From positions 214,020 through 278,019 of the forward strand of contig JAGXHI010000061.1 of assembly GCA_024636295.1 (NCBI GenBank): a stretch of DNA of 64,000 bases, read 5' to 3'. Under the pieces are notes generated by a model, which saw only the letters and a program-made list of their open reading frames with translations, was not told the origin of the DNA and ran no database searches. The stretch is from Desulfuromonadales bacterium. GTDB lineage: Bacteria > Desulfobacterota > Desulfuromonadia > Desulfuromonadales > JAGXHI01. A program made the translations under genes and the position numbers. Of the stretch, positions 5,688 through 17,844 are shown one piece after another; the first letter of the stretch is position 1; each line of letters opens with the position of its first letter.

Positions 5688-6590
5688 ATGGGGCTCCCGA
5701 TGAAGAGAAGGCCATTTCTGATGGCGCTGCTCACCTTGGGAGCCATTTTTCTTGTCTTTGCAGGGCTGATCTGGATCGTGACGGCCTTTACGGGTAGGGG
5801 CTTGTTTCTCCCCTCGGGTGAGAAGGTCGGGATCATTGAGATCAACGGCGTTATCGCTTCGTCACGAAAGCCGATCGAGCAACTTCTCGAATTCCGCGAG
5901 GACTCTACCATTAAGGCTATTGTTCTTCGCGTCGATTCCCCAGGCGGAGGCGTCGGACCTTCGCAGGAAATCCACCGTGAGGTGATCAAAACGGCAGAAG
6001 TAAAACCTGTTGTGGCTTCCATGGGAGCTGTGGCCGCCTCTGGAGGGTATTACGTAATTGCGCCTGCTCAGCGTATCCTGGCCAATCCTGGCACCATCAC
6101 CGGAAGCATCGGCGTCATCATGGAATTCGCCAATGTTCGCGAACTCCTTCAAAAAATCGGTGTCGAGAGCGAAGTGATCAAGAGTGGAAAGCATAAGGAT
6201 ATAGGCTCTCCGATTCGCGCTTTGACCAAGGAGGATCGGAAGATATTGCAGGACCTGATTGAAGATGTTCACCTGCAGTTCGTAACCGCTGTCTCTGAAG
6301 GGCGGGGAATGAAGGTGGAGGAAGTCAAGACTTTTGCTGATGGAAGGATTTTCACCGGTCGTCAGGCACTGGAACTCGGATTGGTGGATGAGCTTGGCAA
6401 TTTACAGGATGCAGTGAAGGTCGGGGCGGACCTTGCCGGCATAAGAGGGGAACCCCAGGTGGTACGTCCCCGAGAGGAAAAACCTGGAATTCTTGAATAT
6501 CTGATTAGTGCAGCGGTCGGTCGATTGCCGTTCGGCCGCAGTGATCTATCATTGGGAGGTCTTCAATTTTTATGGTCTGGATTCGACTAG
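5688..6590 (+). CDS. sppA: signal peptide peptidase SppA (start may be 5700)
   Basis: N-terminal TM segment; LRVDSPGGGVGPSQEI and MGAVAASGGYYVIAPA serine peptidase motifs. Confidence 0.93.
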   Translation: MGLPMKRRPFLMALLTLGAIFLVFAGLIWIVTAFTGRGLFLPSGEKVGIIEINGVIASSRKPIEQLLEFREDSTIKAIVLRVDSPGGGVGPSQEIHREVIKTAEVKPVVASMGAVAASGGYYVIAPAQRILANPGTITGSIGVIMEFANVRELLQKIGVESEVIKSGKHKDIGSPIRALTKEDRKILQDLIEDVHLQFVTAVSEGRGMKVEEVKTFADGRIFTGRQALELGLVDELGNLQDAVKVGADLAGIRGEPQVVRPREEKPGILEYLISAAVGRLPFGRSDLSLGGLQFLWSGFD

Positions 6591-6596
6591 GAGGAC

Positions 6597-6887
6597 ATGG
6601 CTATGACCAAGAGTCAACTGATTGAGAGGCTGTCGTTTGAAAGCGGAACTCTGAACAAGAAAGAGGCGGAACTGATTGTCAATACCATTTTTGACAGCAT
6701 CGGCAGCGCACTCAAAGGTGGTGGAAGGGTAGAAATCCGAGGATTCGGGTCATTCAGTATTCGCAACCGGGACGGCCGCGAGGCCAGAAACCCCAAGAGT
6801 GGAGCACTGGTCAAAATCCCTTCCAAAAAGACACCTTTTTTCAAGACGGGAAAAGAGCTGCGGGAGCGCGTGAACAATGGCGGGTAG
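6597..6887 (+). CDS. ihfB: integration host factor beta / HU-family DNA-binding protein
   Basis: MTKSQLIERL...GRVEIRGFGSFSIRNRDGREARNPKSG; adjacent to rpsA/sppA. Confidence 0.88.
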   Translation: MAMTKSQLIERLSFESGTLNKKEAELIVNTIFDSIGSALKGGGRVEIRGFGSFSIRNRDGREARNPKSGALVKIPSKKTPFFKTGKELRERVNNGG

Positions 6888-6937
6888 TGGATTGTCGTCA
6901 ACTTTTTGATAATGTGGTGGCGGCGGTTTAATAAAGA

Positions 6938-6966
6938 AAAGGCTCCGGTTTCCCGGGGCCTTTAAT
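6938..6966 (+). terminator. rho-independent terminator after ihfB
   Basis: AAAGGCTCCGG-TTTC-CCGGGGCCTTT stem with one T:G pair. Confidence 0.7.
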
Positions 6967-7167
6967 CATGATGGGCTGGCATTGCGCTCCGCTTCCTGTC
7001 AATGTGGAACCCTACTCAAAAGCTCCCGGAGACTTTATTCATCGGTGTAGCGATCTTTCGGATTCCCTTCATGACCGAATCTCCCTGGGAGGGGATGCAT
7101 GTTTTTCAGGAGATGCGCGATGCCAGTTGCACCATATCCGGGATATCGACCGTTTTCTTGAAATTCT

Positions 7168-7350
7168 GGCCGTGAAACTTTAAATCGGCCTCTGAAATCC
7201 GTTTCAGGCGTCCCGTTCGAGGACGGGCAGGCACACCGCGAATTTGACCAAAGCCTTGTCGCATTAATGGTTGGCCGGATCTTCAAGGTACGCGTCGATA
7301 TCCCAGAAAAACTTTTCAAAGAACGTTAGTTGTCGTTAATGGTATGCTAC
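7168..7350 (-). pseudogene. possible decayed coding remnant
   Basis: Minus-strand frame reads VAYH*RQLTFFEKFFWDIDAYLEDPANH*CDKALVKFAVCLPVLERDA*, protein-like composition broken by several stops. Confidence 0.25.
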
Positions 7351-7478
7351 CATATCCTGACTCTCTGTCAAAGGCAAAAGAGACTTCCGGATATTTTTCA
7401 GGAAGGGCGATTTCCGTTCTGCGGTTTTTCCGGAACCTTTCTGATTTCTGTGCCGGAATGGGGCGCACCTGAAGGAAT

Positions 7479-8423
7479 ATGTCAGGAAAAGTAATTCGAC
7501 TCAAGGCAGGTCCGGAAGATTCGGGTTTACGCCTGGACCAGTATATCTCCTCCCGAACCGGGGAATTGTCGCGAACTCTTCTTCGCAAAATAATTGATAT
7601 CGGGGGAGTACATGTTGGAGGGAGGCGTGTTCGTCGCTGCTCCCAACATGTCCGTCCAGGGGAGTCGGTTGAAATTTACCTCGATGGACTTCCTCTTGAG
7701 CCCTTTGTACTCCACGAGTCCCGCATCGTTTATCGGGACAAATACCTTCTGGCGATCGACAAACCCTCGGGTGTCGAAACTCAGCCCACTCCCGCTCGAT
7801 ACAAAGGCACGGTGTACGATGCCGTTTTAAATTATCTGAAAGATCCCTTTCGTCCTCTTGATCGGCCTGCTCTTGGAATGGTCCAACGCCTTGACAGGGA
7901 GACGTCGGGCATCATGGTTTTTTCCATCCATCCCAAGTCTCACCGTGGCCTGTCAGACGCATTCTCCGATCGCGAGGTGATTAAATCATACCTCACCATG
8001 GTGCATGGCCGTCCGGCTGAGGTTCAGGGTGAAATCCGCTCTTTTCTCGCACGTCGCCGCGCTTCCAATCGGATGAAATCGGTTCTTCGCGGAGGAAAGG
8101 CGGCCGTTACGCGATATAGGGTTTTGGAATTCTTTGAGGCGGCTGCGCTGCTCGAGGTGGATATCCTTACGGGACGAACACATCAGATCCGGATTCATTT
8201 CGCAGAGCAGGGGCATCCGGTGCTGGGGGATGATAAGTATGGGGCCATCTCTCATCCAGCGCAGAATATTCATCGCCTGATGCTTCATGCATGTCGTTTG
8301 AGGTTAACTCACCCGGTCAGCGGTCGGGTTTTAGATCTGAAGGTTCCTCTTCCCCCGGATTTTTCCGCTGCTCTGGACATCTATCGTAAAAAATCCGAAT
8401 GCCACGGCGCCATTGCGGATTAA
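7479..8423 (+). CDS. RluA-family pseudouridine synthase with S4 domain
   Basis: GLRLDQYISSRTGELSRTLLRKII, GMVQRLDRETSGIMVFSI (HRLD-like), LTGRTHQIRIHFAEQGHPVLGD. Confidence 0.93.
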   Translation: MSGKVIRLKAGPEDSGLRLDQYISSRTGELSRTLLRKIIDIGGVHVGGRRVRRCSQHVRPGESVEIYLDGLPLEPFVLHESRIVYRDKYLLAIDKPSGVETQPTPARYKGTVYDAVLNYLKDPFRPLDRPALGMVQRLDRETSGIMVFSIHPKSHRGLSDAFSDREVIKSYLTMVHGRPAEVQGEIRSFLARRRASNRMKSVLRGGKAAVTRYRVLEFFEAAALLEVDILTGRTHQIRIHFAEQGHPVLGDDKYGAISHPAQNIHRLMLHACRLRLTHPVSGRVLDLKVPLPPDFSAALDIYRKKSECHGAIAD

Positions 8424-8456
8424 AAATTTCCTGTTCTTCTGCACTGAGGGCTTTCC

Positions 8457-9230
8457 ATGCTGACATATCCGCACATTGATCCTGTCATTTTTCGCATCGG
8501 ACCTCTGGCCGTTCGCTGGTACGGCCTTATGTATCTTCTTGGATTTGCCTGCGCTTATTTCATCATCCGCTACCTTGCAAAACTCCGGGATCTGCCGCTA
8601 AAGACCGAAGGCATCTCCGATCTGCTTTTCTATGGAATTATCGGCGTTGTTCTAGGGGGCCGGTTGGGGTATGTTCTTTTTTACAACCCTGCTTATTATA
8701 TTCGGCATCCTCTCCATGCATTCGCCGTCTGGGAAGGCGGAATGAGCTTTCATGGGGGGCTGCTCGGTGTAATTGTGGCAGCCCTGATTTTCTGTCTCAG
8801 GCGAAATCTTCCGATACTTCTCACGGGAGACATTCTTGTTACCTCGGCCACGGTGGGGCTTGGACTCGGCAGATTGGGTAATTTCCTCAATGCCGAGCTC
8901 TGGGGGAGAGTGACCGAGGTTCCCTGGGGCATTGTCTTTCCGGGTGCCGGTCCCGAACCCAGACATCCCAGCCAACTGTATGAGGCTTTTCTGGAAGGAC
9001 CTGTTCTCCTGGGCCTTTTATGGCTGCTGCATCGGCGAAGGGTAACTGCCGGGATTCCCTTTTTCGTTTTTTTTCTCGCGTACGGAATCTTCCGATTTTC
9101 CGTCGAATTTTTTCGCCAACCCGATGCACACCTCGGTTTTCTGTGGGGCGGAGCCACCATGGGTCAATTATTGTCCCTCCCCATGATTCTCTTCGGTCTG
9201 GTCGGTTTGTACATCAGGATTCGGAGTTGA
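8457..9230 (+). CDS. lgt: prolipoprotein diacylglyceryl transferase
   Basis: GPLAVRWYGLMYLLGF, GGRLGYVLFYNPAYY, GRLGNFLNAELWGRVTEVPWGIVFP, RHPSQLYEA motifs. Confidence 0.96.
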   Translation: MLTYPHIDPVIFRIGPLAVRWYGLMYLLGFACAYFIIRYLAKLRDLPLKTEGISDLLFYGIIGVVLGGRLGYVLFYNPAYYIRHPLHAFAVWEGGMSFHGGLLGVIVAALIFCLRRNLPILLTGDILVTSATVGLGLGRLGNFLNAELWGRVTEVPWGIVFPGAGPEPRHPSQLYEAFLEGPVLLGLLWLLHRRRVTAGIPFFVFFLAYGIFRFSVEFFRQPDAHLGFLWGGATMGQLLSLPMILFGLVGLYIRIRS

Positions 9231-9231
9231 T

Positions 9232-9849
9232 ATGAAGGATATTCGGGGGATTGTTTACGACTGCGACGGAGTTTTGTTTCAGAGCCAAAAGGCGAATCTT
9301 GCCTACTATAATGCCATTCTTGAACATTTTGGTGAGCCTGAGGTCCGGTCCCGAGACAAGGAAAAAGCCCTGCTGTGCCACACGGCGGCGAGCCCCCAGG
9401 TTTTGGCGACACTGATGGGCTCCGAACGGGTGAAAGAGGCGCTTACGTTTGCAGGAAATCTGGACTATCGCAGGTTTATCCCCTATATGTCGCCCGAACC
9501 GGGCCTCACCCAGGCGCTTGAACTCCTCTCCGCCCACTTCCCCCTGGCTATCGCTACCAACCGGGGAAACAGCATGTCGGAGATTTTGGCTCATTTTGGC
9601 ATTGAAGGCTACTTTCGTGCGGTGGTCACCAGCCGGGACGTAGTCCGTCCCAAACCATATCCGGACATGCTGCTGCTGGCAGCCGAAAAACTCGGGGTGG
9701 CGACTGAAAATCTGTTGTTCGTGGGAGATTCGGAGCTTGACCGAAGAGCCGCCCGGGCAGCGGGGATTCTCTTTGCAGCCTACGGGCGTGGCGTCAGGGG
9801 GGAGTTTGCAATCTACTCCCACCAGGAATTGACGGAATTCTTTTTTTGA
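9232..9849 (+). CDS. HAD-family phosphatase
   Basis: VYDCDGVLF, ATNRGNS, PKPYPDMLLLAAEKLG, FVGDSELDRRAARAAG motifs. Confidence 0.88.
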   Translation: MKDIRGIVYDCDGVLFQSQKANLAYYNAILEHFGEPEVRSRDKEKALLCHTAASPQVLATLMGSERVKEALTFAGNLDYRRFIPYMSPEPGLTQALELLSAHFPLAIATNRGNSMSEILAHFGIEGYFRAVVTSRDVVRPKPYPDMLLLAAEKLGVATENLLFVGDSELDRRAARAAGILFAAYGRGVRGEFAIYSHQELTEFFF

Positions 9850-9945: not shown

Positions 9946-10368
9946 TCAGGACAGAGTCTTGACCATCTCCAGGACGTGCCCTCCGTTATACTTCTTGTAG
10001 CTGACCCTGTCCATCAGGGACCGGATGATGTAGACTCCCCTGCCATGTTCATCCAGATCCTCGAAATCGGGGGCTGGAAGGGAGCTGATGTCGAATCCCT
10101 GACCTTCGTCGAATACCCTGATATGAAGGCATTTCTGCTTTATGGCGATTGTGATGTGCACTTCTTTTCGGGGATCGCCCTCGTTGGCATGTCTGATGGC
10201 ATTGGCCATAGCCTCGGTCAGGACAATATTGATGTGGTATGCCAATTCATTTCGATCACCCTTGTATTTTTTCAGGGTTCGGGCAATTTCTTCGCCGATT
10301 TTCCCGATCAGGCTCAGATAGCGGGTCTGGTTGGGGACCCTTATATCCACTTCAATCTTTTCTTTCAT
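9946..10368 (-). CDS. RsbW-type serine/threonine kinase / anti-sigma regulatory factor (GHKL ATPase)
   Basis: N-box LTEAMANAIRHAN, VFDEGQGFD, GRGVYIIRSLMD. Confidence 0.9.
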   Translation of the reverse strand: MKEKIEVDIRVPNQTRYLSLIGKIGEEIARTLKKYKGDRNELAYHINIVLTEAMANAIRHANEGDPRKEVHITIAIKQKCLHIRVFDEGQGFDISSLPAPDFEDLDEHGRGVYIIRSLMDRVSYKKYNGGHVLEMVKTLS

Positions 10369-10414
10369 AATACCCCCGGCAGGCTCTCCCCCATGGGGGA
10401 GGCTCCTGTCCTGT

Positions 10415-10750
10415 TTAGAAGCTGGCGAGAGCTTCCTGGGCGGTCGGGAAAATTTCGAAGACCCTGTGAAGGCGGGTCAGTTCGAACATGGATTTTACCT
10501 GAGGCTGAAGCCCCGAAAGCTTGAGGTTTCCGTTCCGGGCGCTGGCGTTTTTAAAACCGGAGACAAGCGCGCCCAAACCAGAGGAATCAACGAACCGGAC
10601 CTCCTGCAGATCGACCACGATACTGTTTTTCCCCTCCTCAAAAAGGTTAAGCATCTGGCTCTTGAGCTCTCCGCTGTTGTGGGCGTCCAGGCGCTCTTCT
10701 TTTACCTCGATCAGGACGACTGGTCCTGACTCCTCAATTTTGACAATCAT
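10415..10750 (-). CDS. STAS-domain anti-anti-sigma factor
   Basis: IVVDLQEVRFVDSSGLGALVSGFKNA; conserved phospho-acceptor Ser context DSSGLG. Confidence 0.93.
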   Translation of the reverse strand: MIVKIEESGPVVLIEVKEERLDAHNSGELKSQMLNLFEEGKNSIVVDLQEVRFVDSSGLGALVSGFKNASARNGNLKLSGLQPQVKSMFELTRLHRVFEIFPTAQEALASF

Positions 10751-10855
10751 TAGAATCTCCTTTCCATAAATCTCAGAGTGCTGATCTTCCAGGCATAGAA
10801 TTAAAATACCATATAAATCTCATCTCTGACACCGGAAGGTGTCTTCAGAAATTGT

Positions 10856-13800
10856 TCATTCGATTTTCATGACTACGAGCGAGACGTCATCCTGAAAATT
10901 CTGCGATCCCCTAAATAGCCTGACCTGCTTCAAAATATTGTCAATAATCTCATCCGGCCTATGATTGGCATTTTCCTTCACAAGAGTACACAATCTTTCG
11001 TCTCCGAAAAAGTTTCCCTCGTGGTCTTCGGCTTCAGTGACCCCGTCCGTGTAAAGTACCAGAATGTCTCCCGGGTTCAGATGGACCTTGTTTTCCTGAA
11101 ATTCCACCTTCTTCCGGACCCCGAGAATCAGCCCTTCAGCATCGAGGTGTTCGCAAGTACCTGTGTCTGCACGTCGGACGATCGGAAGACTGTGCCCGGC
11201 GCTGGCGAAGGAAAGTTCCCTGTGCTCTACATGATATCTCAGGTAAAACATGGTAATGAAAAGTTCGGCCCGGGTGAGATCGTTGTAGAAAAACTCATTG
11301 ATCGAGCTCATGATCTGACTGGGGCTGGGGTGTTCTATTGCCTTGGACTGAATAAATGTTCGAGTCTGGGCCATCAGAAGTGCGGCGCCGACATTGTGGC
11401 CTGAAACATCTGCGATGACTAGATCCAGGGCGTTTGTGCTGGGGAGAAAATCGTAATAATCACCCCCTACCTGACTTGCGGGAACACAAACTCCAGCCAG
11501 AGAGATTCCTTGAATTGCCGGGACTTTCGTGGGCAGGAGACTGATCTGAATGGTCTTTGCGATTTCCATCTCCTTTTCCTGCTCACGTGCCTGGATGATT
11601 CTCGCGGTCTGCTGTGCGTTGCGCCAGGCCACCCCGATCTGTCCGGCAAGACTCTTGAAGAGTTCTACAAACTCGTCGGTGAAAATTCCCTTGGCTGAGC
11701 GGGAAAACGCCGAAAGCACCCCCACGGGATCGCCCTCGATCGTAATGGGGGCATGGGCGAAGGATTTAATCCCCTCTTTATGTATGATCTGCGCCGAGAT
11801 TGGCTTTTCCATAAAGTCGGAGTCGTTCACCACCACAACGGAGTTGGTGAGAAAGGCTGTTCCGATGGCGGTATCCATGGTCAGTTCCCTTTCCGATTCA
11901 CCCAGGTGCTCTGTGCTCATACCCTTCTGACTGCGGACCTTCAATACCATCTCATCTTCATCCAGGATGCGGATGACACAAAGATCGAATTTGAACTGCT
12001 GTCGCAGGAAATCCAGTATATTGTCCAGGATGGTCTGGATGTCAGCGCCGCTCGCCACAACCCGGGCCGCCTCGTACAGGACTCCGAGTTGTTCGCGGCT
12101 TGAGGTCCGGCTCAGCGTGACCGAGCCGAAAATGTCGAAGACATCCTCCATCCGGCTCCCCCGGGTTGCAAGATAATTATCGATAATGATCCGGGCCGGA
12201 GCCGCTCCCACCGAACCGGCGAGGGTTCTCTCGGTAAAGCGCTTGAGGCTGGGCTGTTCGTACTCAGAGAGACTTCCCTTCTCGTCGATATTCCGGTCTC
12301 CCATGTACTGGGCGATGGCGGCGTGCGCCTGCTTTTCGCCGATGAATTTGCTCATCAGGTCTACAAACTCGATGATGCTCGGAGCTTTGCTGATGCGCTT
12401 GCGTTGTTCGATTTCCTGAGGGGGCGCCATGGCGTCGACAAATTTGATGGCCTGCTCCTCCTCCATTTCAGAAGGGGAGGCCAGCAGAGAGAATGTCAGG
12501 AAAGATCCAAGATTGAACAGAAGGGACCAGAACAGAGAATGGGTCCAGATATCGAACCCGGTGAGACCGAACATTTCCAGAGGGCGGAGAAGTGATATTC
12601 CGAACAGGCCCTCTTCCAGGATTTCGCTTCCAAGCCAGCCCGACCGGACGAAGGAGGGAACCAGAAGGGTATAGAACCAGATCACCAGGCCGAACAGGAG
12701 CCCGATCAGGGCGCCCTGCCTGTTGGCCCGCTTCCAATACAGGCCGCCAATGAACGCGGGAGCGAATTGCGAAGCGGCGAGAAAGGAAATCAGCCCCATG
12801 TTGGTGAGAGCGTAGGATTCTCCGATGATGCGATAATAGATGTATCCGAGGAAAATGACCCCGAAAATTCCCAGTCTTTTCAGGTTGATAAGGAGTCCTG
12901 ACATGTTGTCGGGCCCCATTCGGAGCTTTAGAATCACCGGAATGATCAGGTGATGGAGGATCATGGTGGAAAGGGCGACCGATTCAACCATGACCATTCC
13001 CGCCGATGCGGAGAACCCCCCGATGAAAACCAGCAAAGCAAGCCATAAATGTCCCGTCTGGAGCGGAATTTCCAATACGAAGTAATCGGCCTGTGCGGCA
13101 TCGCCTCCGCTGAGAATCAGCCCTCCCAGAGCAATGGGAATCACGAACAGGGTGATGAGAAACATGTATGCCGGGAAGCGCCACATGGCGTCCCGGATAT
13201 GTTCCTCCCGGGAGTTTTCAATGACCATGATATGGAACTGTCGCGGAAGAAACATCACCGCCATCATGGATACAAAGCTTAAAGTGAACCAGGTCGTATA
13301 AGGGATTTGTGGTGTATCCACAAGCAGAAGATGTCCCCGGTCGGGAAACTTCTCCAGGAACTGCCGGAATACGTCACCAAATCCATCGAAGAGGAAAAAA
13401 GTGACAAAGATCCCCACCGTGACGAAAGCGATGAGCTTGACCAGGGATTCGAGGGCGATAGCGGCCACCAGACCCTCGTGGCGCTCCGAGGCATCCAGGT
13501 GCCGGGCTCCGAAAAGGACGCTGAATAGACCAAGAATCAGGGCTGCAATAAAGGCTGTATCAAGAAGGGGCATGGCCGGAAGGATGTTTTGGACGCCGTG
13601 AGTCACGGGTATCGTTCTGCCGGAGAGAAGATTGAAAGTATGGGATATCGCCTTGAGCTGCAGGGCGATATAGGGCATGATTCCCAGAACCGCGAAAATT
13701 GTGACGACAGCACCAAGAAATGCCGATTTTCCATAACGGCTTGAGATGAAATCGGCGATGCTCACGATGTTCTGGTCCTTGCTGACGCGCACCATTTTGC

Positions 13801-14062
13801 GCAGGAGGAACCACCAGGAGAAGGCAATCAGGGTCGGCCCCAGATAGAGGGGAAGAAAATCCAGACCGGTCGTTGCCGCACGTCCGACGCTGCCGTAGAA
13901 AGTCCAGGAGGTGAAGTAAACCGCAAGGGATAGAGAGTAGATGTAGGAATTGGAGATGACGCTTCTGCCCGCTTCACGTCTTTTGTCCGCATAGTATGCA
14001 ACCGCGAAGAGAAGTCCCAGATAAGCCAGGGATATGACAGCGACCACGGTGACCGAAATCAT
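10856..14062 (-). CDS. sodium:solute symporter fused to linker, GAF and SpoIIE/PP2C serine phosphatase
   Basis: Multi-TM SSS region (about residues 1-500), GAF-like middle, C-terminal PP2C motifs ASQVGGDYYDFL, VIADVSGHNVGAALLMA, VLYTDGVTEA, QDDVSLVVMKIE. Confidence 0.88.
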   Translation of the reverse strand: MISVTVVAVISLAYLGLLFAVAYYADKRREAGRSVISNSYIYSLSLAVYFTSWTFYGSVGRAATTGLDFLPLYLGPTLIAFSWWFLLRKMVRVSKDQNIVSIADFISSRYGKSAFLGAVVTIFAVLGIMPYIALQLKAISHTFNLLSGRTIPVTHGVQNILPAMPLLDTAFIAALILGLFSVLFGARHLDASERHEGLVAAIALESLVKLIAFVTVGIFVTFFLFDGFGDVFRQFLEKFPDRGHLLLVDTPQIPYTTWFTLSFVSMMAVMFLPRQFHIMVIENSREEHIRDAMWRFPAYMFLITLFVIPIALGGLILSGGDAAQADYFVLEIPLQTGHLWLALLVFIGGFSASAGMVMVESVALSTMILHHLIIPVILKLRMGPDNMSGLLINLKRLGIFGVIFLGYIYYRIIGESYALTNMGLISFLAASQFAPAFIGGLYWKRANRQGALIGLLFGLVIWFYTLLVPSFVRSGWLGSEILEEGLFGISLLRPLEMFGLTGFDIWTHSLFWSLLFNLGSFLTFSLLASPSEMEEEQAIKFVDAMAPPQEIEQRKRISKAPSIIEFVDLMSKFIGEKQAHAAIAQYMGDRNIDEKGSLSEYEQPSLKRFTERTLAGSVGAAPARIIIDNYLATRGSRMEDVFDIFGSVTLSRTSSREQLGVLYEAARVVASGADIQTILDNILDFLRQQFKFDLCVIRILDEDEMVLKVRSQKGMSTEHLGESERELTMDTAIGTAFLTNSVVVVNDSDFMEKPISAQIIHKEGIKSFAHAPITIEGDPVGVLSAFSRSAKGIFTDEFVELFKSLAGQIGVAWRNAQQTARIIQAREQEKEMEIAKTIQISLLPTKVPAIQGISLAGVCVPASQVGGDYYDFLPSTNALDLVIADVSGHNVGAALLMAQTRTFIQSKAIEHPSPSQIMSSINEFFYNDLTRAELFITMFYLRYHVEHRELSFASAGHSLPIVRRADTGTCEHLDAEGLILGVRKKVEFQENKVHLNPGDILVLYTDGVTEAEDHEGNFFGDERLCTLVKENANHRPDEIIDNILKQVRLFRGSQNFQDDVSLVVMKIE

Positions 14063-14316
14063 TCTGAGCCAGGCCCTTTCCTCTTGTCGAATTGACTATG
14101 CGGTGGCCCATTATCACGTGTTGTTTTGGCGAACAGAAAAATGATAAAGATGGAAAAAGGCCATCCGATCATGAAATAGAGGACCAACATCGGAATGCCG
14201 AGAATGAGATATCCCTTGTTGAAAATATGCAGGAAAGGATAGTTGAGCATGACAACGCCAAGAAGAAAAAAGAGGACCCAGGCTTCTTTAACTCTTATGT
14301 GCCCATCTTTTTTCAT
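14059..14316 (-). CDS. small membrane protein translationally coupled to the symporter
   Basis: 85 aa, two hydrophobic segments; 4-bp overlaps with both neighbours. Confidence 0.75.
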   Translation of the reverse strand: MKKDGHIRVKEAWVLFFLLGVVMLNYPFLHIFNKGYLILGIPMLVLYFMIGWPFSIFIIFLFAKTTRDNGPPHSQFDKRKGPGSE

Positions 14317-15881
14317 GGCCGCACTCCGGATCTGTTAATCATCTCGGGAAGAATCCAATGCAGATTATATTCAAGATCTCTGGAGGTGTCGATGATTATA
14401 GTCCCTTCATTTTCGGAAGGAACATCGAAATGTTCTTTCTGGTCTCCCAGCAGTTCGCGGCGACCATCCGAAATCTCGCGGCCGAGGTTTTCCCTGCGAT
14501 CGAGACGATGGGCGAGGATATCGGGGTCGAGGGTCATCTGCAGGATGTAAAAAGGAACGCCCGCTTCCGCGGCCGCTCTTCGGAATGCCTCACGTCTGGG
14601 GCGATGAATGAATGAGGCGTCTGCAATGACAGTCTGCCCTGATTTCAGGGCCGAAACAGTACATTCCAGGAGACGATCGTAGGTGCGCTGGGTGAATTCC
14701 GGAGAGTAAATGCCCTGTTCATAGGAATCCAGAATCCGGGTGGACGCTTCCAGCCCTGCCAGTTCCTTGCGGATCTGATCCGAGCAGAAATATCTGGCAC
14801 CAATGAGTTCCGACAATTCACGGGCTACAGTGGTTTTGCCGGTCCCCATAAGGCCGCAGGTGATGATCAATGTCGGAGGAAAAAGATAGGCCAGTGCCTG
14901 ATTGAAATACCGGCGGGACAGGCGAGCCGCCTCTTGTCGGGTGTTTTCGCCTGCGGACCGATCTTCCGAGAGTATTCCCTCGACCTTCCCGCGGACGAAA
15001 GCACGATAGCTTTTATAGAAGGGCAGGAGGGAAAGCATTTCCCCATCGCCAGATAGCTCGAGATATCGATTCAGGAGGATGGCCGCCAGGTCCCTGCGTC
15101 GCCTGAACTCCAGATCCATCAGGAGAAATGCCAGGTCTGCAGCGGTATCCGCCACGCGGAATCGTCGGTTGAACTCGATGCAATCGTAAATGCAGACGGG
15201 TTCGGTCAGGCAAATGTGTTCTGCATGAAGGTCGCCGTGACCGTCGCGCACGAAACCTTCCGCCTCCCTGCGAAGAACGAGAGATTGATATTCCTCAAGA
15301 AAATCCCCGACGAACTCTCTGCAGGCCTTCAGGGCTTTTTCCGTCAGAATCCCTCCTGCAAAAGGAGCGCTCTGGCGGAAATTCTCTTCCCAGTTGATCC
15401 GCACCACTTCCAGATTGGACCGTCGATCATTTATTCTTACAATATCGGTCTCTTTGTGGAAGTGGACAAGTATGCGGGCGAGGGAGGACATGTGCCCCGG
15501 AAGGGTCGGATCCCCCGTTTCGATCAGGCGGTCCAGCATCCTTTCCTCTGGAAGACGATTCATCACCACGGCGTAATCCATGATTTCGCCCTTGTCGCCA
15601 ATATGAATCTGATCTCCCTTGCGGCGGATTTCTGCAACACCCAGGTAGGTCCCCGGACAAAGACGGCAATTCAGCCGAACCTCCTCACGGCAGAAGAAAA
15701 GTCGTGCTTCGAGGGTTGAGAAATCCAGGAACCCCAGATTTACGGGCTTTTTGATCTTGTACACATGTCTGTCGGTGAAATAAAGCCGCGAGACGTGGGT
15801 TTCACGATATTCGATCGGCCCGGTTGTTTCCGGAAAATTTTCTGCCTGCAGCAGGGCCTGATGTTGGGTCTGGATAGCCAT
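14313..15881 (-). CDS. bifunctional aminoglycoside phosphotransferase-like / P-loop kinase protein
   Basis: GFVRDGHGDLHAEHICL (APH catalytic) and LIITCGLMGTGKTTVARELSE (Walker A). Confidence 0.88.
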   Translation of the reverse strand: MAIQTQHQALLQAENFPETTGPIEYRETHVSRLYFTDRHVYKIKKPVNLGFLDFSTLEARLFFCREEVRLNCRLCPGTYLGVAEIRRKGDQIHIGDKGEIMDYAVVMNRLPEERMLDRLIETGDPTLPGHMSSLARILVHFHKETDIVRINDRRSNLEVVRINWEENFRQSAPFAGGILTEKALKACREFVGDFLEEYQSLVLRREAEGFVRDGHGDLHAEHICLTEPVCIYDCIEFNRRFRVADTAADLAFLLMDLEFRRRRDLAAILLNRYLELSGDGEMLSLLPFYKSYRAFVRGKVEGILSEDRSAGENTRQEAARLSRRYFNQALAYLFPPTLIITCGLMGTGKTTVARELSELIGARYFCSDQIRKELAGLEASTRILDSYEQGIYSPEFTQRTYDRLLECTVSALKSGQTVIADASFIHRPRREAFRRAAAEAGVPFYILQMTLDPDILAHRLDRRENLGREISDGRRELLGDQKEHFDVPSENEGTIIIDTSRDLEYNLHWILPEMINRSGVRP

Positions 15882-16016
15882 TGTATGGAAGACGTCTGGC
15901 CGGAGTCGAAGAACAGTTTCTTGAAAGCTGTATAAGGTCCTGATTTCCTTTAGACTTTATCACATGTCGCCGGAGTGTAAAGATTTTTTGGCCTTTGCAG
16001 GTGCTCGCGGTGGAAA

Positions 16017-16046
16017 TTGACCCATTCGAGACTCCTGTGGTAATCT
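16017..16046 (+). promoter_or_regulatory. candidate sigma70-like promoter of the TPR gene
   Basis: TTGACC - 18 bp - TAATCT, 65 bp before the ORF start. Confidence 0.3.
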
Positions 16047-16110
16047 GTTAAATTGCGAATCCCTGAAGGACGCCTTACAGGGCCACCTCTCTCTTTAATC
16101 AGGAGCCGGC

Positions 16111-17844
16111 ATGTTGCTTCGGCTGATGTTTTTACTGTTGCTCCCGGTATCGATTTCTGGATGCATGGGGCCGTTTCACTCCATTTCTTCTGGGGATGGC
16201 GAGGGAGGAAAATATGTTTATACTCCTAAGGACCAATCCCCGGCTTCTGAAGCCCTGTATTACTTCACGAAGGCACGCCTTCTCGCCCTGGATGGTGATC
16301 TGAAAGAGGCAGAAAAGTCCCTCTCCCGGGCAATTGAGCTGGATCCGGACGATCTTTTTCTCCGCACTTCGCTCGTTCAGCTCTATGTCCAACTCGACCG
16401 GGAGGAACTGGCGGTAAAAACAGCGCGCGAATTGGTGGACAGGCACCCGGAAAATGTCGAAATACGGCATCTGCTTGCCGATCTCCATTTCAACCGGGAA
16501 GAGAATTCCGAGGCCATCGAGCATTACCAGCGGATCATCGAACTGGATCCCGATCAGGAAAGCGCCTATCTCCATCTGGCGTTGGCACTGGCTCGTTCCG
16601 GAGATCCCGGTAGGGCTATTGAAACGGCGAAGGAATTGCGGAAAAGAAATCCCGGGTCCCTGCAGGCGAATCTCATCCTGGGTGGTCTCTATCGGGAAAC
16701 GGGCCTGGATGGTCTTGCCGAAGAAATTTATCTTGAGCTGCTCGAAAGCAATCCGGGTCTGGAGCCGGCCTATCTGGAACTCGGGGGGATTTACGAGAGC
16801 AGAGATGAGATTGGAAAGGCTATTGGCATCTATGAAGCCGCCGTTCGCGAAAGCCCCAGGGATCTGGCCCTTCGCCAGCACCTTGTCCGGCTTTACATTC
16901 TACACAAAGACCTCGACCGCGCACTGGCGGAATTGCAAAGCATTCTGGAGATTGAGCCCGAAAATCTTGAAGCGTTGCGCAAGACGGGTCTGATTTACAT
17001 GGAGCAGAGTCAATGGAATAAGGCGGTGCAGGTTTTTTCCGGGATTCTGGACCTCAACTCCGATATGGATCCCATTCAGTTTTATCTGGGGAGTTCGCTG
17101 GAACACCTCGAGGACTGGGACGGGGCATTAAAAGCTTTCCTGGCTATTTCACCAGAACCCCATCGCGATCTGTACGTCGATGCGGTCACCCATGTGGGTT
17201 TCCTGTATCATCGGCTCGGACGGGTGGACGAAGCGGTTTCCATCCTTGACAAAATGCTTCAGGACGTTCGAGGACGATCGGAACACTACATTTTCCTTGC
17301 CTCACTCCTGGAGGAGCAAGGAAAGTTCGAAGAAGCCCTGAGGGCGGTTGACAGGGGAAAAGCTGTATTCCCGGACAACATGGAACTGAGCTATCACCGT
17401 GGAATCATCCTGGAGAAGAAAGGCGACCGGCAAAGGGCCCAGGAGGAAATGCGCAATGTACTCGACTCGAATCCGGATCACGTGGAAGCGCTCAATTTCC
17501 TCGCTTACGCCTATGCCGAAAAAGGGGAAAACCTTCAGGATGCGCTTCAGATGGCGCGCCATGCGTTATCCCTCAAAAATGAGCCGCATATCATGGATAC
17601 CCTGGGATGGATCTATTATAAGCTCGGCCGTTACGAGGACGCCCGACAGGAGCTTGAAAAGGCATCCGAAGCCCTTTCCGCGGATCCCGTGGTTCTTGAG
17701 CATCTGGGGGATGTTTACAGGGCGCTGGAACTCCATGAGAAATCCCGATCCACATACGAACGCGCGCTGGAGCGGGATCCCGACAATGAAAGTCTGCGGC
17801 GGAAGTCTGGGCAATCAGATTCGGATGGCCATGCGCCCCGTTAG
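16111..17844 (+). CDS. TPR-repeat (lipo)protein
   Basis: Signal/lipobox-like MLLRLMFLLLLPVSISGCMG; many TPR units (AIELDPDDLFLRTSLVQLYVQL, ALERDPDNESL). Confidence 0.9.
   Translation: MLLRLMFLLLLPVSISGCMGPFHSISSGDGEGGKYVYTPKDQSPASEALYYFTKARLLALDGDLKEAEKSLSRAIELDPDDLFLRTSLVQLYVQLDREELAVKTARELVDRHPENVEIRHLLADLHFNREENSEAIEHYQRIIELDPDQESAYLHLALALARSGDPGRAIETAKELRKRNPGSLQANLILGGLYRETGLDGLAEEIYLELLESNPGLEPAYLELGGIYESRDEIGKAIGIYEAAVRESPRDLALRQHLVRLYILHKDLDRALAELQSILEIEPENLEALRKTGLIYMEQSQWNKAVQVFSGILDLNSDMDPIQFYLGSSLEHLEDWDGALKAFLAISPEPHRDLYVDAVTHVGFLYHRLGRVDEAVSILDKMLQDVRGRSEHYIFLASLLEEQGKFEEALRAVDRGKAVFPDNMELSYHRGIILEKKGDRQRAQEEMRNVLDSNPDHVEALNFLAYAYAEKGENLQDALQMARHALSLKNEPHIMDTLGWIYYKLGRYEDARQELEKASEALSADPVVLEHLGDVYRALELHEKSRSTYERALERDPDNESLRRKSGQSDSDGHAPR

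Follow-up and report, generated by a model that had tools for sequence, protein, structure and literature searches.

Transceptors are uncommon, and little is understood of how they signal. In the CbrA/CbrX system of Pseudomonas (PDB 10ed, PMC13022988) an SLC5-STAC-PAS-histidine kinase chain, accompanied by a small subunit, signals through HisKA/HATPase domains and the response regulator CbrB, and the acetate and pyruvate SLC5-STAC kinases CrbS/R and RpuS/R (PMC5715377, PMC9100948; likened here by description) also join a transporter-derived SLC5-STAC sensor to a histidine-kinase output with response regulators. A stretch of 64,000 nucleotides from a Desulfuromonadales bacterium (contig JAGXHI010000061.1, positions 214,020 to 278,019; this whole stretch is referred to as the window) contains a cassette in which this type of input is followed by a PP2C phosphatase domain, a STAS protein and an RsbW-type kinase. 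These belong, with intact motifs, to the same PP2C, STAS and GHKL-kinase families as RsbU/RsbV/RsbW and SpoIIE/SpoIIAA/SpoIIAB, from which the cassette differs in its transporter-derived input and the absence of an adjacent sigma gene. The sequence features described below make it likely that the fusion protein is a transceptor signalling through a partner switch, its CbrA-type SLC5 input governing a PP2C domain that acts on the neighbouring STAS/RsbW pair. With CbrA/CbrX it shares the SLC5-STAC input, the Na2-site lysine, several residues of the histidine pocket and an overlapping small upstream membrane gene, whereas its output is the PP2C-STAS-RsbW set rather than HisKA/HATPase and CbrB, a GAF domain stands where CbrA has PAS, and its small protein is not recognisably homologous by sequence. 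Actinobacterial SSS plus HATPase_c proteins with GAF and PP2C_SIG domains, presented in one paragraph and a figure of a 2021 review (PMC7918813), share SSS, GAF and PP2C and constitute an earlier notice of the architecture; these proteins, again compared by description, came out of a search for HATPase_c within the same chain, and no STAC domain, neighbours, mechanism or function was described for them.

The cassette lies on the minus strand of 9946-15881, where the open reading frame (ORF) list gives the transcription order APH/AAA_33 kinase, small membrane gene, fusion, STAS protein and RsbW-type kinase, with a 4-bp overlap at each of the first two junctions. Its genes and domains, including those assigned by structural matches and an AlphaFold2 (AF2) model, are as follows.

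14313..15881, minus strand: APH-like plus AAA_33 kinase, 522 amino acids, first in the apparent operon (ORF and Pfam)
14059..14316, minus strand: small protein, 85 amino acids, with a pair of predicted membrane helices, located where CbrX lies in the CbrA system (ORF)
10856..14062, minus strand: transceptor-phosphatase fusion, 1068 amino acids, SLC5/SSF - STAC - GAF - signalling helix - PP2C (Pfam, structure matches, AF2)
12485..14053, minus strand: SLC5/SSF transporter-like membrane domain, residues 4-526 (CbrA 10ed match, Foldseek, conserved pocket residues and K209)
12161..12421, minus strand: STAC four-helix domain, residues 548-634 (alignment to CbrA STAC, AF2 model)
11627..12046, minus strand: GAF domain, residues 673-812 (Pfam, 2qyb match)
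11537..11677, minus strand: long helix from GAF to PP2C, residues 796-842 (AF2 model)
10859..11530, minus strand: SpoIIE/RsbU-type PP2C phosphatase domain, residues 845-1068 (Pfam, fold matches, complete metal-site motifs)
10415..10750, minus strand: STAS antagonist, 111 amino acids (Pfam 1e-21), phospho-acceptor loop D55-S56-S57-G58-L59-G60 at 10571-10588
9946..10368, minus strand: RsbW-type GHKL serine kinase/anti-factor, 140 amino acids (Pfam HATPase_c_2 6e-25), N-box E52-N56 at 10201-10215

An earlier note on this DNA, made from the sequence alone, had described the 1068-residue ORF as a sodium/solute symporter half, a linker, a GAF-like domain and intact SpoIIE/PP2C motifs. This composition is borne out by the ORF itself, by Pfam, in which SSF, GAF and SpoIIE are all matched, by the match to CbrA, and by an AF2 model (mean pLDDT 83) exhibiting an SSF domain, a four-helix STAC, GAF, a 47-residue helix and PP2C, of which the SSF, GAF and PP2C parts are confirmed by Foldseek. 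Although the Pfam SSF match to the fusion is weak (3.4e-6, 26.6 bits, just over the cut-off), the assignment can be made because the single fusion sequence matches CbrA SLC5-STAC (10ed) over residues 3-634 (E 1.8e-71, 33% identity over 588 aligned positions) and Foldseek relates the membrane half to SGLT, NIS and SMCT1, which have the SSF fold. The linker exists and is better described as a STAC domain, since 21 of 81 positions in segment 548-634 are identical to the CbrA STAC, the model places its four helices at 563-633, after the last membrane helix, and the STAC profile also matches most of the relatives with a histidine-kinase output. The symporter assignment stands as regards the fold, while sodium coupling is doubtful, as K209 is aligned to K196, the lysine at the Na2 site of CbrA, and is invariant in 50 aligned orthologues. 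K196 fills the Na2 site of CbrA, which is proton-coupled (PMC13022988), and by this alignment the SLC5 domain is probably also proton-coupled via K209. The CbrA pocket residues Y51, W55, F71 and Y75 correspond to Y49, W53, F69 and Y73 of the fusion, the gating Tyr/Trp being retained, and among core copies, as distinct from the extra copies discussed below, constraint is strong at Y49 (78/81), Y73 (80/81), P76 (81/81) and K209 (80/81). Six CbrA contact positions are nevertheless changed (S53, A56, C74, F248, S251, H257), so that the ligand need not be histidine, and histidine is not claimed. The GAF domain (Pfam 5e-16) matches 2qyb (E 6e-35), which is the GAF domain of a membrane protein from Geobacter sulfurreducens, and the long helix that follows it is likened to the 45-residue regulatory helix of SpoIIE, which touches the PP2C switch helices and makes the active dimer (PMC5468089).

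The PP2C domain (Pfam SpoIIE 5e-55) has Foldseek matches to RssB, RsbU (Rv1364c), SiaA and SpoIIE, and its metal residues D868, D885, D1006, D1058 and D1059 are present in 92/92 fusion proteins compared, which excludes a loss of the metal-binding aspartates. Pfam finds neither HisKA nor HATPase_c within the fusion; the protein shares the input of the SLC5/STAC sensor family but is no SLC5/STAC histidine kinase. The STAS protein and the kinase, noted earlier as lying downstream on the same strand with a DSSGLG context and N and G boxes, are likewise upheld by Pfam and by conservation: DSSGLG is conserved at >=95% in 62 STAS orthologues, together with long conserved stretches, and E52, N56, D87xG89xG91 and G109RG111 at >=95% in 60 kinase orthologues. 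The closest solved structures are TM1442 and SpoIIAA for the STAS protein, which is alignable to SpoIIAA, and RsbW 6m36, then SpoIIAB, for the kinase. In the window's genome, a 3.55-Mb draft that is 87% complete, the fusion is the sole intact SpoIIE-type PP2C, and one RsbW-type match lies well over the cut-off (87.9 bits; others <=30.6, in longer frames). A second PP2C candidate (L002 1474-1776, minus strand) is a remnant of about 100 amino acids with the first motifs only, the later ones being gone, and a second STAS belongs to a permease that its sequence identifies as MlaE-like, leaving one stand-alone STAS. Since each part of the switch is thus single (one PP2C, one RsbW-type kinase, one stand-alone STAS), the fusion PP2C, the STAS protein and the kinase are almost certainly cognate.

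A match to the fusion at E <= 1e-60 is found in 220/244 genomes of the class, a count that may include fragments and relatives with a histidine-kinase output, although full-length matches dominate. The order small gene, fusion, STAS, kinase, followed downstream by a convergent lgt gene, holds in Desulfuromonadales and in further families of the class, and the four-gene cassette occupies one syntenic slot across Desulfuromonadia, including Geobacteraceae. Counting unique loci with room at the relevant side, STAS and kinase genes lie downstream at 82/93 PP2C-fusion loci, as against 0/23 of the histidine-kinase versions; at 82 of 93 loci their position beside the fusion is not due to chance. One orthologous fusion, L014 (G019:C1), is complete in its match apart from a single TAG within the frame, which may reflect a pseudogene, an error of sequencing or readthrough.

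Sampled members of the phylum that lie outside the class yield no match spanning SSF into PP2C; their matches stop near residue 840 or 650, with other outputs beyond. The outside-class relatives whose outputs were examined are histidine kinases, at 44-53% identity. On a tree of the SSF-STAC-GAF part, built by a quick method with the output domain left out and from relatives that are not independent, every PP2C version falls on one side of a branch with SH-aLRT 99 and the histidine-kinase versions fall outside. Given this split and the distribution of outputs, one output swap is the simplest reading, its direction probably being from histidine kinase to PP2C. The replacement of a kinase output by a PP2C serving its own STAS/RsbW pair, as envisaged in the earlier note, is supported by the CbrA homology, the kinase-output relatives, the gene order, the single parts and the module losses described next, the coupling itself being an argument from analogy. 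A third output for the same input is encoded on an Azoarcus sp. KH32C plasmid (L193 2290-5680), where SLC5-STAC is joined to GGDEF-EAL and a gene of 64 amino acids lies directly upstream.

Natural losses separate the modules of the cassette. At the same slot genus g64 has a bare PP2C (254-276 amino acids, 41-43% identical to the fusion PP2C) followed by STAS and kinase, and family f4 has STAS and kinase alone, which indicates that STAS and kinase track the PP2C. An unrelated phosphatase was not found with the pair at this slot, where it occurs only with the fusion, with its PP2C alone, or with none. A separate cluster in a family f4 genome (L161, G070:C185), with several STAS proteins and an 801-residue PP2C-HATPase protein, belongs to a different partner switch. 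The small two-helix membrane protein (14059-14316), a fourth gene that the earlier note's span holds but leaves unnamed, is conserved, and its gene precedes the fusion at almost every orthologous core locus. It is also found upstream of 14/22 histidine-kinase-output relatives with room for it and is absent wherever the transporter is lost (genus g64, family f4), and by this pattern it tracks the transporter. Pfam gives no match for it, and its sequence matches neither CbrX nor any solved chain. The APH-like plus AAA_33 kinase is the leading gene of the apparent operon at many orthologous loci, some of which have lost the fusion, though it is not there at all of them.

In the proposed mechanism, in which ligand and target are putative and so are the coupling and its sign, a small solute would bind in or pass through the SLC5 domain, packed with the small two-helix subunit. 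By analogy with CbrA and SpoIIE, the resulting conformation could be relayed via STAC to GAF, a possible second input, and along the long helix to the PP2C switch helices; PP2C would then remove the phosphate from the DSSG serine of STAS. Unphosphorylated STAS would bind the RsbW-type kinase, causing it to free its target, possibly an alternative sigma factor, and when PP2C is idle the kinase would rephosphorylate STAS. The cassette holds no sigma gene. RpoS as obligate kinase target is unsupported, since each of the 96 genomes has RpoS-like genes whether it carries the fusion or not, family f4 included; being general in the order, these genes do not single out a target. No Rosetta-stone fusion of kinase and target was evident by open-frame length among the matches listed (the search matched 228/244 class genomes). 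The generality of RpoS-like genes is one of several points that weigh against a transporter-driven switch. The connection of SLC5 to PP2C is drawn by analogy, and in CbrA the SSS domain is inessential for kinase function and deletion of STAC has a mild phenotype or none (PMC7918813), so that the transporter half may only modulate the output. GAF could be the main input, the pair in family f4 persists without the fusion and can thus work in its absence, and the single-part argument draws on a genome only 87% complete.

In a rival explanation GAF is the true sensor and SLC5-STAC a mere membrane anchor or an independent transporter, the system then being an ordinary GAF-RsbU partner switch. Transporter-free GAF-PP2C phosphatases are common, the CbrA kinase works without its SSS domain (PMC7918813), and the PP2C of genus g64 survives without transporter and GAF alike. 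This explanation is unlikely, however, as the SLC5 pocket and proton-switch residues are strongly constrained in core copies and pocket variation is specific to the extra copies, STAC is retained, a domain that in CbrA lies packed on the base of the transporter (PMC13022988), and in core-core comparisons GAF is less conserved (0.56) than STAC (0.64) or SSF (0.66). Signal flow might also be reversed, with the partner switch controlling transport through an action of PP2C/STAS on the SLC5 domain, an idea to which the single chain shared by transporter and phosphatase and the STAS domains of SLC26 transporters (PMC8256260) lend some plausibility. It is very improbable considering that STAS and kinase in family f4, and PP2C, STAS and kinase in genus g64, exist without a transporter, and that relatives with a histidine-kinase output have no STAS neighbour. 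Equally hard to credit, if not slightly more so, is that the fusion PP2C serves another phosphoprotein while the STAS/kinase pair answers to a different phosphatase; the pair without fusion in family f4 is compatible with this, whereas the window's genome has only one intact SpoIIE-type PP2C and only one such pair, gene order is class-wide, and the bare PP2C of genus g64 still lies beside the pair. A transceptor acting through a partner switch remains the favoured explanation.

Eleven unique fusions have no STAS/kinase neighbours, and as they nest within the core group on the tree these extra copies probably arose by duplication. The core STAS was found elsewhere in 10/10 genomes with extra copies that were checked. 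At the CbrA histidine-contact positions 28% of the cells of extra copies depart from the core, compared with 10.5% at SSF columns of equal conservation (permutation p 0.0018), and the similarity of these copies to the core relative to core-core similarity is 0.98 for helix plus PP2C and 0.91 for SSF, STAC and GAF, both comparisons being based on 11 sequences from few duplications. A pocket that varies next to a constant phosphatase suggests several nutrient sensors feeding one switch, and the extra copies may hypothetically be ligand-diversified sensors acting on one STAS substrate, in which case those with altered pockets would probably feed the same switch as the core copy of their genome. 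More tentatively, Desulfuromonadia may possess a hub in which several transporter-derived phosphatases with differing pockets all dephosphorylate one shared STAS. If so, many nutrient-occupancy signals would be summed in one switch that sets a global programme of growth or respiration.

These searches turned up no earlier description of the class-wide cassette that joins transceptor and partner switch, of its series of module losses or of the multi-sensor hub, prior notice being confined to the domain architecture in another phylum, Actinobacteria. A literature search for Geobacter with SpoIIE/symporter or SSS/PP2C found nothing, no paper linking STAC/SLC5 to SpoIIE/PP2C beyond PMC7918813 was recognised among the best 15 of 54 literature matches, and the main text of a survey of PP2C domains in bacteria from 2025 makes no mention of symporters. 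With kinase, cyclic-di-GMP and phosphatase outputs attached to one SLC5-STAC input, the step from transport to signal becomes testable by a simple phosphatase readout. The fusion is also a candidate for the upstream input to a partner switch conserved in Geobacter and its relatives, organisms that matter for metal respiration and electricity-producing cultures.

Several extra copies adjoin TRAP, BCCT, MFS or aldehyde-oxidoreductase genes. TRAP transporter genes are found beside extra copies in L042 and L070 and a BCCT gene in L068, and L131 (G011:C16) has two extra copies about 4.7 kb apart (6086-9307 and 13997-17203), the first adjoining aldehyde ferredoxin oxidoreductase and MFS genes. Beside two further extra copies lies a divergent gene for a membrane protein of 224-233 amino acids (L124 5085-5759 and L128 9478-10179; 74% mutual identity), of which the L128 protein matches an MCP-type 40H sensor domain.

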